Of a DNA stretch of 64,000 bases, positions 35,812 through 42,038 are shown in pieces. The notes under the pieces are model-generated. The model was not told the origin of the DNA and ran no database searches. It saw only the letters and a list, made by a program, of their open reading frames with translations. The position numbers and the translations under genes are program-made. The stretch is from an uncultured Flavobacteriales bacterium (GTDB taxonomy: Bacteria > Bacteroidota > Bacteroidia > Flavobacteriales_D > Parvicellaceae), in contig CAJWDP010000010.1 in NCBI GenBank assembly GCA_913030835.1, positions 1 to 64,000 of the forward strand. Direction: 5' to 3'. Numbering within the stretch: position 1 is the first letter of the stretch; each line of letters starts with the position of its first letter.

Positions 35812-38376
35812 TTACAGCTTTCTTGCTACTTCCACTTCTTCGAAGGCTTCAACTATATCTCCCACCTTGATGTCGTTGTACTTCTCGATATTTAAACCGC
35901 ACTCATACCCATTTTTCACCTCCTTCACATCGTCTTTGAACCGTTTCAAGGACCCTAATGTACCGGTGTATATTACGATACCTTCTCTAATCAGTCTTAT
36001 CTGCGAATTTCGGCTGATGGTTCCTTCCGTCACAAAACAGCCAGCAATTGTTCCCACTTTAGAGATCTTGAACGTTTCCCGAACTTCGACAGATCCCGTT
36101 ATACTCTCCTCGATATCTGGAGACAGCATTCCTTCCATGGCATCTTTGATTTCCTCAATGGCCTTGTAGATGACTGAATACAGTCGAATATCGATTTCCT
36201 CTTTCTCGGCCAATTTTCGAGCCTGCAGTGAAGGTCGCACCTGAAAGCCTAGAATAATCGCATCCGAAGCCGTAGCTAGTAGAACATCCGACTCTGAAAT
36301 TTGCCCGATTGCCTTGTGAATTATGTTTACCTGTATCTCTTCCGTGCTTAGTTTAATCAACGAGTCAGAAAGAGCCTCAATGGAACCATCCACATCACCT
36401 TTCACGATCAAATTAAGCTCTTTGAAATCTCCAATTGCAAGACGTCTTCCAATTTCATCCAACGTAATGTGTTTGGTTGTTCTTATACCTTGCTCTCGTT
36501 GCAGCTGCTGCCTTCTTGTTGCTATTCCTTTGGCTTCTTTTTCATCGTCCATAACATTGAATCGATCACCAGCTGCTGATGGGCCATGCATTCCCAGAAT
36601 TGATACTGGATAGGATGGTAGCACTTCTTTCACAGACTCACCTTTTTCGTTGTGCATCGCCTTTACTTTGCCCATCTGCGTACCTGCTACCAATACATCT
36701 CCTATATTCAGGGTTCCTGCTTCGACTAACAACGTTGTAACATAGCCACGCCCTTTATCTAGTGTAGATTCGATCACAGTACCTACAGCTTTCTTATCCG
36801 GATTGGCCTTCAGCTCTAGCATTTCAGCTTCCAGGAGCACCTTTTCAAGAAGATCTTCAACTCCTTTTCCCGTTTTCGCGGAAACTTCTTGGCTTTGGTA
36901 TTTTCCACCCCAGTCTTCAACCAAGATATTCATTGCCGATAACTGTTCCCTTATTTTATCGGGGTTGGCCTCTTCCCTATCGCATTTGTTGAATGCAAAT
37001 ACCATGGGAACTCCCGCTGCCTGCGCGTGATTTATCGCTTCTTTGGTTTGTGGCATCACCTCATCATCTGCAGCGATGATGATAATCGCCACATCCGTTA
37101 CCTGTGCACCACGAGCTCTCATTGCAGTAAATGCTTCGTGACCCGGTGTATCCAAAAACGTGATTCTTCTTCCTGACTCTCCCTGCACATTATATGCTCC
37201 AATATGCTGAGTTATACCTCCTGCTTCCCCCTCCGTAACCTTTGCATCCCGAATGAAGTCAAGTAAAGATGTTTTTCCGTGGTCAACGTGACCCATAACC
37301 GTTACAATCGGCCACCTTGGCTTCAAATCTTCCGCGTCGTCTTGTTCTTCTTCAATGGTTTCTTGTACGTCTGCGCCAACAAATTCAACAGTGTATCCAA
37401 ACTCTTCCGCCACCATAGTCAGCGTTTCCGCATCAAGACGCTGATTAATCGACGCAAAAATTCCGATCGACATGAGTGTAGAAATTATGTCAGTAGGATT
37501 TTTATCCATCATGGTAGCAAGCTCAGATACTGTAACAAATTCCGTTACTTTCAGAACCATGTCCTCTGACTGCTGGAGCATCATTTCTTCCTCTCGCTTT
37601 TCTGCGTGAGCATCCCTCTTTGCTCTTCTTTGCTTTACCGCCTTGGATTTTCCTTTTCCGCTCAGACGCGCTAACGTGTCTTTTATTTCTTTTTGAATTT
37701 CTTCCTGAGAAACTTCGTTTTTCTGCTGATCTTTTCTACCTGTCTTTCGGGCCTGCTTTGCAACGTTCGCACCAGTCTTTTCTATATTGACCTTCTTGAT
37801 GCGTTTTCTTTTTCGCTTTTGTGCATCTTTACCGGCAGACGATTTTTCTTTTTCTTTCGGAAGCTCAATTTTACCCAAAACCGTAGGGCCTGACAACTTT
37901 TCGGTTTGAGCCTTAATTGTCTCTACTTTTTCTTCTTCCTTAGGCTGCTCTTTCTCCTTCTTTTCAGCACTCTCTTCCTTCTTTTCAATTTCGGTTGGCT
38001 TTTCCTCTTTCTCTTTTTCACTTTTCGGAGCAGGGTCTACCTTGTCCAAATCAATTTTTCCTACCACCGAGGGCCCAGTCAATTTTTCCTTTGGGGATAT
38101 GGGTTTTTGCGCTTCTAATTGCGCTTCTTCTTCTGCACGATCTATGGTGATGGTCTTTCTTTCTTCGGCTTTCTGGCGGCTCGCTTCATCCGCTTTCACC
38201 TTCGCCCCTCTGTCCGCCTGAAACTCATCCAACAACAGCTCATAGATCTCCGCGTCCAATTTGGTGTTTGGACTTGTATCTATGTCTTTACCCTGTTCCG
38301 ACAAGAAATCAACGATGGTACTTATACCAACATTCAATTCTTTCGCTACTTTACTTAACCTCTTTGGTGCTGCCAT
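35812..38376 (-). CDS. infB: Translation initiation factor IF-2
   Basis: An 854-residue GTPase that places initiator tRNA on the small ribosomal subunit. The N-terminal third (about residues 1-270) has an initial helical domain, then a long charged stretch rich in Lys and Glu, typical and poorly conserved. The G domain (about 350-525) shows [20 protein letters not shown] and the NKCD motif. Domains II to IV follow, with [15 protein letters not shown] and the C-terminal [16 protein letters not shown]. The opposite strand carries many open frames only because of the biased composition. The gene is the last of rimP-nusA-infB, 82 bases after nusA. Confidence 0.97.
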
Positions 38377-38458: not shown

Positions 38459-39694
38459 TTAATCAAATTCTGATTGAAGTATTTTAATTACTGCTCCAAT
38501 CGTTTCTTCTTCTAAATCTGTTCTTTTCGCCAAGTCTTCAGCTGGAATTTCCAATACGGAACGTGCTGAATCACAACCAATTGACTTCAGCTGATCCAAT
38601 ATCCAGTGATCGATCTCATCTGCAAATTCTTCCAGATCAACATCATCAATTGCTTCTGTACCTTCACGATATACATCCAGTTCCAGTTCAACCAGCTTGC
38701 TTGCCAGCTTTATGTTGTGCCCGCCTTTTCCAATAGCAAGAGAAACCTGATCCGGTTTCAGATATACATCCGCACGCCCACCGTCATTATCAATATCCAT
38801 TGAAACAATTCTGGCCGGGCTCAATGCTCTTGTAATCAGTAGCTGCATATTGTTGGTCCAATTGATCACATCAATATTTTCATTTCTAAGCTCACGTACA
38901 ATTCCGTGAATCCTGGATCCTTTCATTCCAACACAAGCACCTACCGGATCGATTCTGTCATCATAAGACTCCACAGCCACCTTTGCACGCTCACCCGGTT
39001 CTCTCACAATTTTTCTTATTGTAATCAGTCCGTCAAAAACTTCAGGAACTTCAAGTTCAAAGAGTCTTTCAAGGAATTCTGGCGCCGTTCTGGACAGAAT
39101 AATTACAGGGTTATTGTTTCTCAAATCTACTTTTAATACTACGGCTCTAATACTATCGCCTTTCTTAAAATAATCGGTTGGTATCTGCTCCGATTTTGGC
39201 ATGATCAACTCATTGCCTTCATCATCCAGCACAAGAATTTCTCTTTTCCAGATCTGGTAGACTTCCCCGGTGATTATTTCACCCACGCGTTCTTTGTACT
39301 TCTTGTAGATGTGATCTTTTTCAAGCTCTAAGATTCTTCCGATCAGATTTTGCCTTAGAGACAAAATGTTCCGTCTTCCGAAATCTTCGAATTTGATTTC
39401 CTGAGAAACTTCTTCCCCTACTTCAAAATCAGGCTCTATTTGTATCGCATTTGCGTATGAAATTTGGGTGTTTGGATCTTCCACCTCCCCATCGTAAACG
39501 ATCTCTCTGTTCAACCAGATTTCTAAATCTCCTTTATCTACGTTAATGATCACATCTATGTGCTCATCTGTTCCGTATTTTTTCTTGAGCATCGATCTAA
39601 AGACATCTTCGAGGATCCTCATCATCGTAACTCGATCAATGTTTTTGAATTCTTTAAACTCCGAAAATGACTCAATCAAATTTGCCGTGTCCAT
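38459..39694 (-). CDS. nusA: Transcription termination/antitermination factor NusA
   Basis: A 411-residue RNA polymerase-associated factor that affects pausing, intrinsic termination and antitermination. The N-terminal polymerase-binding domain (about residues 1-125) is followed by an S1 domain (about 130-200, GEIITGEVYQIWKREILVLD) and two KH domains (about 205-345, with ACVGMKGSRIHGIVREL and VSLAIGKGGHNIKLASKL). A C-terminal acidic segment (after about 345) is shorter than in enterobacteria. It lies eight bases after rimP. The preceding leader of the operon carries a terminator-like hairpin that NusA itself could influence. Confidence 0.97.
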   Translation of the reverse strand: MDTANLIESFSEFKEFKNIDRVTMMRILEDVFRSMLKKKYGTDEHIDVIINVDKGDLEIWLNREIVYDGEVEDPNTQISYANAIQIEPDFEVGEEVSQEIKFEDFGRRNILSLRQNLIGRILELEKDHIYKKYKERVGEIITGEVYQIWKREILVLDDEGNELIMPKSEQIPTDYFKKGDSIRAVVLKVDLRNNNPVIILSRTAPEFLERLFELEVPEVFDGLITIRKIVREPGERAKVAVESYDDRIDPVGACVGMKGSRIHGIVRELRNENIDVINWTNNMQLLITRALSPARIVSMDIDNDGGRADVYLKPDQVSLAIGKGGHNIKLASKLVELELDVYREGTEAIDDVDLEEFADEIDHWILDQLKSIGCDSARSVLEIPAEDLAKRTDLEEETIGAVIKILQSEFD

Positions 39695-39702
39695 TGCATA
39701 TC

Positions 39703-40179
39703 TTATTTAAATGAAATAACAAGTTTAGTTTGTTTTATATCTGTAAAAGGAATCTCGTATCGATTGACTACCAATTCCTTTTTCTTTTTTCCTTCTATTT
39801 TTTCCTTTGTTTCCTTTTCAAGGATCACTTTCTCATCATCCACAGCTATTATTTTGCCATCCTGGCTGCCATGTGATTTGAATGTTACCTTGACTTCTCT
39901 CCCTATATTTTTGGTATATTGTTTATGCACTTTAAACGGTTGATCCATGCCCGCAGAAGAGACCGATAGTTGGAAATCTTCTTCATCACGGTCTAAATTG
40001 TGCTCGATGTTTCGGCTTACTGCCACACAATCATCAATGGATACTTTTCCCGATTCTGCATCAAGAAACAGCTGAATGTCGTTACTCGGCGAAATCTTCA
40101 AGTCTACAATGAAGAGGTCTTTTCCAATCTCTTCAATTCGGTCTTGCGCTAATTTTAACACTGTTTCTGTACCAATCAT
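39703..40179 (-). CDS. rimP: Ribosome maturation factor RimP
   Basis: A 158-residue protein needed for maturation of the 30S subunit. It has the two-domain layout: an N-terminal alpha/beta domain with LFIVDLKISPSNDIQLFLDAE and CVAVSRNIEHNLD, the conserved VSSAGMDQPFK linker, and a C-terminal SH3-like barrel with IGREVKVTF. It heads the conserved rimP-nusA-infB operon, with a promoter at 40262-40292 and a leader of about 75 bases that contains a hairpin. Confidence 0.95.
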   Translation of the reverse strand: MIGTETVLKLAQDRIEEIGKDLFIVDLKISPSNDIQLFLDAESGKVSIDDCVAVSRNIEHNLDRDEEDFQLSVSSAGMDQPFKVHKQYTKNIGREVKVTFKSHGSQDGKIIAVDDEKVILEKETKEKIEGKKKKELVVNRYEIPFTDIKQTKLVISFK

Positions 40180-40207
40180 ATTCCTTCAAATGTGACCTTC
40201 TTTTGCA

Positions 40208-40231
40208 TAAAAAAGGGGGACTTTCGTCCCC
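40208..40231 (-). terminator. GAAA-loop terminator-like hairpin in the rimP operon leader
   Basis: On the minus strand the sequence is GGGGAC-GAAA-GTCCCC followed by CTTTTTTATGC: a 6-pair G/C-rich stem with a GNRA tetraloop and a six-base U-tract. It lies downstream of the MORN-repeat gene stop (40293), so it can end that transcript. It also lies downstream of the promoter at 40262-40292 and 29 bases before rimP, so it is inside the operon leader. Confidence 0.8.
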
Positions 40232-40261
40232 ACTTCATCTTTTAATCACTATTTGATGGCA

Positions 40262-40292
40262 CAAATATACAAAATAATATTTCGCACACAAA
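40262..40292 (-). promoter_or_regulatory. Bacteroidota-type promoter of rimP-nusA-infB
   Basis: On the minus strand TTTG (40289-40292) is followed after 19 bases by TATATTTG (40262-40269). Both elements match the consensus exactly and the spacing is ideal. It begins immediately after the MORN-repeat gene stop codon. The start site would be near 40255. Confidence 0.75.
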
Positions 40293-42038
40293 TTATCTTC
40301 TCAGTTTGGGCTGTCCTCCCTTACTAACCACTACTTCTTCTAAATTTCCGTCTTTGTAGATCGCATGGTAAATCACCTTGTCTCTTTTCCCATATATGAT
40401 CATTGCTCCGTGCATTTTATTGATCTTGTAATTGGTCTCAGACATTTTGGCCCCACGTCTTCCGTACTGTATCGTTTGACCGTGTAGTTTCCCATCTTTG
40501 AATTCATTCTTATAAGCGACAATTACTCCGCCCGGATAGTAATGCTTCCAAACACCTTCTTTTTGACCATTTTTGTATGGACCTTCCGCCGTGATTTTTC
40601 CATCTAGCTGGCTGTACGACTTCCATTGTCCGTCCTTATAACTCACCTCCTTAAACCTAGATTGTTCCAATATTACTTCTTCCATTTTGCTCTTGTCTTT
40701 TACAATTTTCCAGGTCCCTTCGTCCCGCAAATTGCCATTGTCGAAGTAGTATTTCCATGATCCTGTTTTCATGTCTCGTTCATAGGCCCCTTGGTAAGAC
40801 AATGTTTCATTTGGATACCATCCTTTCCACGACCCCTGCATGAGGCCATCATGGTAGTCTCCTTCGTCTTTTTTATGCCCGTTCTGATACCAGCTGGTCC
40901 AGGTCCCTTCTTGCTTTCCATTCTTGTAGCTTCCTTTTTGTAGCAGCTCGCCACCTTCAAACCAAGTTGTCCACTCGCCTTCTTTCACATCTTCTGAATA
41001 TGTGCCGACTCTCCATTTAGAACCATTGGAATAAAAATACTCCCATTCTCCTTCCCTCTTTCCTGCCGCATAAGACCCTCTGTAATGCACTTTCCCACTG
41101 GGGTAATAATACACCCAATGTCCACTTTGCAAATCCTGTTCGAAATCACCTTCCATATCGGTTTGGCCATTCCTGTCACGCCATATCCAATGACCTACTT
41201 TTTTACCCATTTCCCAATTGCCCTCTCGCAACACAATCCCGTTTTTAAAGTATGCCTTGTACTTTCCATCGAGCTGGTCATTTGAAAAGTTCGCTTCTCT
41301 ATCTATTGCTTCGCCATCGATGAAATAAAACTTCCAATGACCAACCTTCTTTCCATTATCGTGTTGACCTATTATTCTGGGTTTACCTGCCGGATTGTAT
41401 TTGGCATATGGCCCTGTCATAAGACCATTTTCATAAGTTGTCTTTTCTTTGATCGTGTATTCGCTGTGACGGGATTCAAGCACGCCCTCTCCATTCTCCA
41501 CCGCCTGCTCGCCATTTTCATACCAATAATTCCACAAGTATCTTAACGAGTCATTGTACTCGAATTGTTCCTTGATCTGGTGTTCCGGAAATTGCAATGA
41601 GGGTTGATACCAAACTGTCCAGTATCCCACTTCCTTTCCCATACTGTAATTGCCCTCTTCCGCGGGAGCTCCATTCTTGAAGTACGAGAAATATGTGCTG
41701 TCCTGAAATCCCCATTTGAACCACCCTGTCTGTTGCAATTTTCCGTTTTCATAGAACCTCGACACTTTTCCATTGAGCTGTCCGCGATTATAATGAGCTA
41801 TCTCTTGCTTTTTTCCGTTTTGATAATAAAATATCCATCTACCCTGCTTTGTTCCAATATCATTCCAGCCTTTGCTGTTAACGTAACCTTCGCTTCTAAG
41901 AATGGTGCTGTCCATGTCCCAATACGTGCGCACTTTTTCAACACCCAGCAACCCAGTGATCGTGTTTGAATATCCGTCCTCCTGACCAAAACTTATTCCG
42001 GCCAATCCCATTAAACATAAGCCCAAGATGTACTTCAT
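40293..42038 (-). CDS. Exported MORN-repeat protein (YwqK-like)
   Basis: A 581-residue protein with a signal peptide (residues 1-19, ending GISFGQ) followed by about twenty tandem units of the MORN/YwqK type, each about 22-24 residues. The core reads G-x-W-x-x-Y-x-x-N-G-x-x-x-x-x-G-x-Y, as in KHGRW/KVGHW/REGEW variants. It closes with a basic end, GGQPKLRR. Databases often name such proteins antitoxin YwqK, but nothing here indicates a toxin. The frame opens at 42098, but the ATG at 42036-42038 gives the signal peptide. A likely surface or periplasmic scaffold; function unknown. Confidence 0.85.
   Translation of the reverse strand: MKYILGLCLMGLAGISFGQEDGYSNTITGLLGVEKVRTYWDMDSTILRSEGYVNSKGWNDIGTKQGRWIFYYQNGKKQEIAHYNRGQLNGKVSRFYENGKLQQTGWFKWGFQDSTYFSYFKNGAPAEEGNYSMGKEVGYWTVWYQPSLQFPEHQIKEQFEYNDSLRYLWNYWYENGEQAVENGEGVLESRHSEYTIKEKTTYENGLMTGPYAKYNPAGKPRIIGQHDNGKKVGHWKFYFIDGEAIDREANFSNDQLDGKYKAYFKNGIVLREGNWEMGKKVGHWIWRDRNGQTDMEGDFEQDLQSGHWVYYYPSGKVHYRGSYAAGKREGEWEYFYSNGSKWRVGTYSEDVKEGEWTTWFEGGELLQKGSYKNGKQEGTWTSWYQNGHKKDEGDYHDGLMQGSWKGWYPNETLSYQGAYERDMKTGSWKYYFDNGNLRDEGTWKIVKDKSKMEEVILEQSRFKEVSYKDGQWKSYSQLDGKITAEGPYKNGQKEGVWKHYYPGGVIVAYKNEFKDGKLHGQTIQYGRRGAKMSETNYKINKMHGAMIIYGKRDKVIYHAIYKDGNLEEVVVSKGGQPKLRR

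Follow-up and report, generated by a model that had tools for sequence, protein, structure and literature searches.

A terminator-like hairpin in the rimP-nusA-infB leader, kept across almost the whole of the Bacteroidota and probably a form of a known attenuator

A short terminator-like hairpin in the 5' leader of the rimP-nusA-infB operon is kept at its position across almost the whole of the Bacteroidota, and most probably represents the local version of a known self-limiting brake. It was followed up from one stretch of 64,000 nucleotides from an uncultured Flavobacteriales bacterium (the window). The products of the operon are factors for ribosome maturation, for transcription elongation and termination, and for translation initiation. 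We favour, with a probability of roughly 0.65, the reading that the hairpin and the U-run behind it are the Bacteroidota form of the rimP-leader attenuator, a premature intrinsic terminator with feedback by NusA. The presence of a leader terminator throughout the phylum indicates that the attenuator is far older, or has arisen independently more often, than would be gathered from the gammaproteobacterial Rfam model. Such a terminator opens NusA feedback to direct testing in a phylum in which this factor has received little study, and its stem provides a near-exclusive sequence tag for the rimP leaders of the class.

All the elements of the locus lie on the minus strand. The putative operon promoter is of the Bacteroidota type, TTTG-N19-TATATTTG (40262..40292), and consists of a TTTG element (40292-40289), a 19-nt spacer (40288-40270) and the TATATTTG box (40269-40262); it is recognised by its sequence and by the retention of the box in the leaders of the class. 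A simple sigma-70 scan did not list it, because promoters of the Bacteroidota -33/-7 type fall outside the coverage of that scan, but the comparative evidence given below supports its assignment. The start site is predicted at about 40255-40258, some 75 nt from the start codon. The core hairpin, GGGGAC-GAAA-GTCCCC (40231-40216), identified by sequence, fold and conservation, is followed by a C (40215) and TTTTTT (40214-40209), the predicted 3' end of a terminated leader of ~45 nt, and a further 29 nt (40208-40180) separate the T-run from the rimP ATG (40179). The promoter, the hairpin, the six U and the 29 bases before rimP had all been described in a sequence-only reading of this DNA, and on re-reading of the coordinates were found to be exact to the base. 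The first operon gene, rimP (39703..40179; Pfam PF02576, RimP_N, and PF17384, the RimP C-terminal domain), is followed by nusA, encoding the proposed feedback factor (38459..39694; NusA_N, S1 and KH_5), and by infB, encoding IF2 (35812..38376; Pfam IF-2). Upstream, an open reading frame with MORN_2 repeats (Pfam) runs on the same strand and ends at 40293, adjoining the promoter. Elsewhere in the source genome, outside the window (G000:C33:35058-35594), a second open frame, of 181 aa, is similar to the KH region of NusA over residues 232-403 (37% identity, E 3.8e-33); the relatives searched gave no second match of comparable strength.

The 30-nt hairpin segment has a predicted fold of -15.0 kcal/mol (z -4.0), and none of 200 shuffles was equally stable. 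This fold comprises six base pairs and a bulged U, beyond which the C and the beginning of the U-run are engaged in four additional pairs. Among 19 terminator-like sites in 16 kb, the most G-C pairs are found in the rimP hairpin and its palindromic twin on the plus strand. Ordinary GGGG/CCCC terminators are present elsewhere in the source genome and in related genomes; across all 3.14 Mb of the genome, the rimP leader is the sole site that has GGGAC-N4-GTCCC with a T-run behind it. The hairpin exceeds chance expectation and, judged by its letters, has the form of an intrinsic terminator.

Within the genus, the three genomes agree at every base of a 26-nt block, AGTGGGGACGAAAGTCCCCCTTTTTT, and the leader 3' of this block, up to rimP, has diverged. 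In the order, 56 of the 60 relatives were found to have nusA, and sequence preceding rimP was readable at 53 loci; the arrangement of promoter (with a TAnnTT-type box), hairpin with U-run, and rimP was found in 53/53 usable leaders, which bears out the earlier placing of the hairpin in the operon leader, after the promoter. In the class, 135 of 149 genomes gave a RimP_N match; the 110 leaders read from the class, pooled with those of the order, make 163. A hairpin with GGG in its 5' arm and CC in its 3' arm, followed by a T-run, is present in 151 of these 163 (5.6 in dinucleotide shuffles, range 3-9), and the sequence GGGGAC...GTCCCC is contained in 92. The mirrored type of hairpin, with a C-rich 5' arm, is at the level of chance in the same leaders (4 vs 4.1 in shuffles). 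The hairpin is thus conserved both in the close relatives to which the sequence-only reading had looked and in distant ones. As for the promoter, a TAnnTT(T/C)G box lies 9-33 nt before the G-run in 146 of the 151 hairpin-bearing leaders, and a -33 element, TTG 19 or 20 nt upstream of a TAnnTTTG-type box, was found in 67 of 123. Two families of the class, f55 (L131, L151, L153) and f63 (L097, L117, L123), have rimP preceded by the promoter and a very short leader, with no hairpin; since three genomes in each family do without it the hairpin is dispensable, and these families provide natural tests of leader function. In two other leaders (L021, L025) the 5' arm is duplicated (GAGGGGACGCGGGGACGCAAGTCCCCTC), setting two 5' arms against one 3' arm.

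The pattern GAGGGGAC-N3-6-GTCCCCTCTTTTT was scanned in one genome per species for 84,980 species and matched in at least 118 stretches, of which 80 loci are listed. All 80 listed loci belong to the Bacteroidota, and 78 of the 82 motif matches among them have rimP directly downstream; three more come from palindromic rimP leaders read on the opposite strand; at the last the contig flank ends, with a rimP-like start seen by eye. As a background, 290 genes other than rimP, each preceded by a gap of 60 nt or more, were taken from Bacteroidota contigs. A hairpin with a T-run was present in 12 of these and the arrangement promoter-hairpin-start in one. Figures are given for these background genes alone, because the rimP loci set beside them had been chosen by the motif itself and had mispredicted start codons. 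Among the matches listed, the GGGGAC-type hairpin is linked near-exclusively to rimP.

Alignment of such short hairpins by MAFFT shifts those with other loop lengths, and for this reason anchored pair counts were used in place of a covariance model. The inner pair next to the GGGG/CCCC anchors, which took no part in the anchoring, has complementary bases in 102 of 109 leaders (mean 76.8, maximum 87, with shuffled partners), being A-U in 87, C-G in 9, U-A in 4 and U-G in 2; since the leaders are related by descent, this supports the pairing rather than proving it. Conservation of the U-run that immediately follows the stem equals that of the stem itself: each of positions 3-6 beyond CCCC is T in 98-113 of 118 leaders, and A almost never stands there. 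The ninth base after CCCC, beyond two more variable positions, is T in 111 of 118, which matches the conservation of the U-run and gives the U-tract a conserved end. In 26 leaders from other classes of Bacteroidota, an automatic search gave a GC-rich hairpin and U-run in 18, and inspection of the remaining eight by eye revealed a hairpin in most of them too, differing in having a longer loop or a mismatch, or in its distance. The stems of these classes are unlike GGGGAC, examples being CGCCC..GGGCG, GTGGGGG..CCCCAC, AGTGAG..CTCGCT and TAGCCCG..CGGGCTA. What is constant across the phylum, as read from these leaders, is a hairpin with a U-run before rimP, that is, the requirements of a terminator. 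The variation in stem sequence among classes counts against a fixed protein-binding sequence. It may be imagined that the fixed stem of each class (GAGGGGAC in this class) is read by the NusA of its own lineage, the two co-evolving, so that the GGGGAC stem would be a single-site recognition element for NusA, but we think this rather unlikely.

The sequence-only reading had allowed that the hairpin might simply terminate the upstream MORN gene; with a 3' terminator of that gene as its sole role, it would lie downstream of the rimP promoter by chance. In the source genome and its genus the gene upstream is indeed of MORN type and shares the strand of rimP; the interval between the MORN stop (40293) and the rimP promoter has no room for another terminator, and in the source strain the hairpin may additionally end MORN transcripts. 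However, the hairpin stays at rimP while the upstream gene changes, and in 32 of 72 loci that gene is on the opposite strand, divergent from rimP. Two loci (L140, L150) have a terminator-like hairpin on either side of the promoter, the one behind it being the rimP hairpin. The divergent loci rule out a sole role at the MORN gene and, with the arrangement kept in every usable leader of the order, leave that reading, which we reject, with next to no probability. The hairpin, conserved with rimP despite changing and divergent neighbours, is therefore taken to be an element of the rimP leader. As such an element it might act on the mRNA rather than on transcription, either in the initiation of rimP translation or in protection of the 5' end, since in most relatives 8-40 nt separate it from the start codon, which places it near the ribosome binding region, in genes of which the majority have no Shine-Dalgarno sequence. 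But its distance to the start codon is variable, and an element for translation or stability would need no U after the stem, where the U-run is conserved like the stem itself; such a role is very unlikely.

The form and retention of the hairpin make it highly likely that it terminates transcription in vivo. In the attenuator mechanism that we propose, RNA polymerase would start near 40256, make ~25 nt and next transcribe the hairpin and U-run; some polymerases would stop at about 40209-40214, releasing a leader of ~45 nt, and the remainder would read through into rimP, nusA and infB. NusA made from the operon would promote hairpin formation and pausing, giving more termination and so negative feedback. 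The interval between the predicted start and the hairpin is only ~25 nt, AT-rich and diverged across genera. A leader this short leaves little room for an antiterminator, and control is thus most likely to be exerted by a factor on the polymerase or on the hairpin. Analogy with other bacteria suggests that NusA is probably this factor. NusA autoregulation is reported at the equivalent leader in Bacillus subtilis (PMC12288461); in Escherichia coli, where two terminators precede rimP, a reduction in NusA termination raises the level of operon transcripts (PMC6511841). Deep retention before one operon also fits feedback by the operon's own product. NusA need not be limiting, since the hairpin is stable (-15 kcal/mol) and in B. 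subtilis it is the weak or interrupted terminators that depend most on NusA (PMC12288461). Many factors act on intrinsic terminators, a stable stem could terminate unaided, and the evidence at the leader described here is its conservation. A terminator with some other regulator (RimP, NusG, Rho, RNA polymerase speed or ppGpp, for example), or an unregulated one that fixes a low level of expression, is thus a possibility to which we give appreciable though clearly lesser weight; feedback by RimP is likewise considered in PMC2965389. The precedents for NusA in B. subtilis and E. coli tell against it.

Beyond the Bacteroidota, comparison was made with E. coli and with the literature. The rimP-leader of Naville & Gautheret (2010) is a short G-rich/C-rich hairpin with a U-run, located 4-130 nt before rimP; in their survey it is the most frequent attenuator, with the consensus GGGc(...)gCCC, published for most of the species surveyed, Firmicutes and Gammaproteobacteria included, and NusA is proposed as the regulator (PMC2965389). 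The main text of that paper does not mention the Bacteroidota. The hairpin described here shares with the rimP-leader its position in the 5' leader of rimP-nusA-infB, its GGG/CCC core with a G-rich 5' arm, and a U-stretch within the same range of distances (here C and six U, 29 nt before the ATG), and is likewise without a larger conserved element or antiterminator. It differs in the weaker next pair, g/c here and c/g in the published consensus, and more generally in its stems, which are mostly GAGGGGAC/GTCCCCTC in the class studied, with others elsewhere in the phylum. In B. subtilis, according to Mondal et al. (2016, as summarised in PMC12288461), NusA controls its own expression by stimulating termination in its leader. 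Read-through of this terminator sets nusA expression, and the dependence on NusA was measured there, whereas it is inferred here; the B. subtilis leader is ~180 nt, according to PMC2965389, against ~75 nt to the start codon here.

The Rfam model RF01770, 'Gammaproteobacteria rimP leader', has no match in the window at any listed E-value (cut-off 47 bits); as a positive control, the E. coli copy scores 102 bits. The two leaders have operon and position in common, and the E. coli copy ends at the equivalent place in GGGCTTTAGGCCC-U7, but the gammaproteobacterial leader is longer and has a tandem upstream terminator, unlike that of the window. Over the window Rfam gave no match at gathering level, and the sub-threshold matches (sraA, BSnc120, snoRNAs), far below their cut-offs, were set aside as chance. 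In Flavobacterium psychrophilum, a structured 5' element upstream of rimP, without an Rfam match, is conserved in the Flavobacteriaceae (PMC9723704). It is in the same phylum and at the same gene, but its conservation was noted within the family only, and the main text of that paper gives no structure or mechanism. Flavobacterium johnsoniae (L226) carries the rimP hairpin described here. The suggestion that a leader attenuator in the Bacteroidota would be a separate, parallel solution to that of E. coli is not supported, in view of the known and widespread rimP-leader, the GGGCTTTAGGCCC with seven T in E. coli and the NusA-stimulated leader termination reported in B. subtilis. This kind of attenuator is itself already known, and what is new is the class-specific stem and the phylum-wide reach.

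A further pairing was noted in the three genomes of the genus (window positions 40256-40181 of the minus strand, L002 and L003), in which UCAAAU in the start region is complementary to AUUUGA just before the rimP start codon. The predicted pairing forms an outer helix around the terminator. It may be due to chance, or it may influence how rimP is translated from read-through transcripts.
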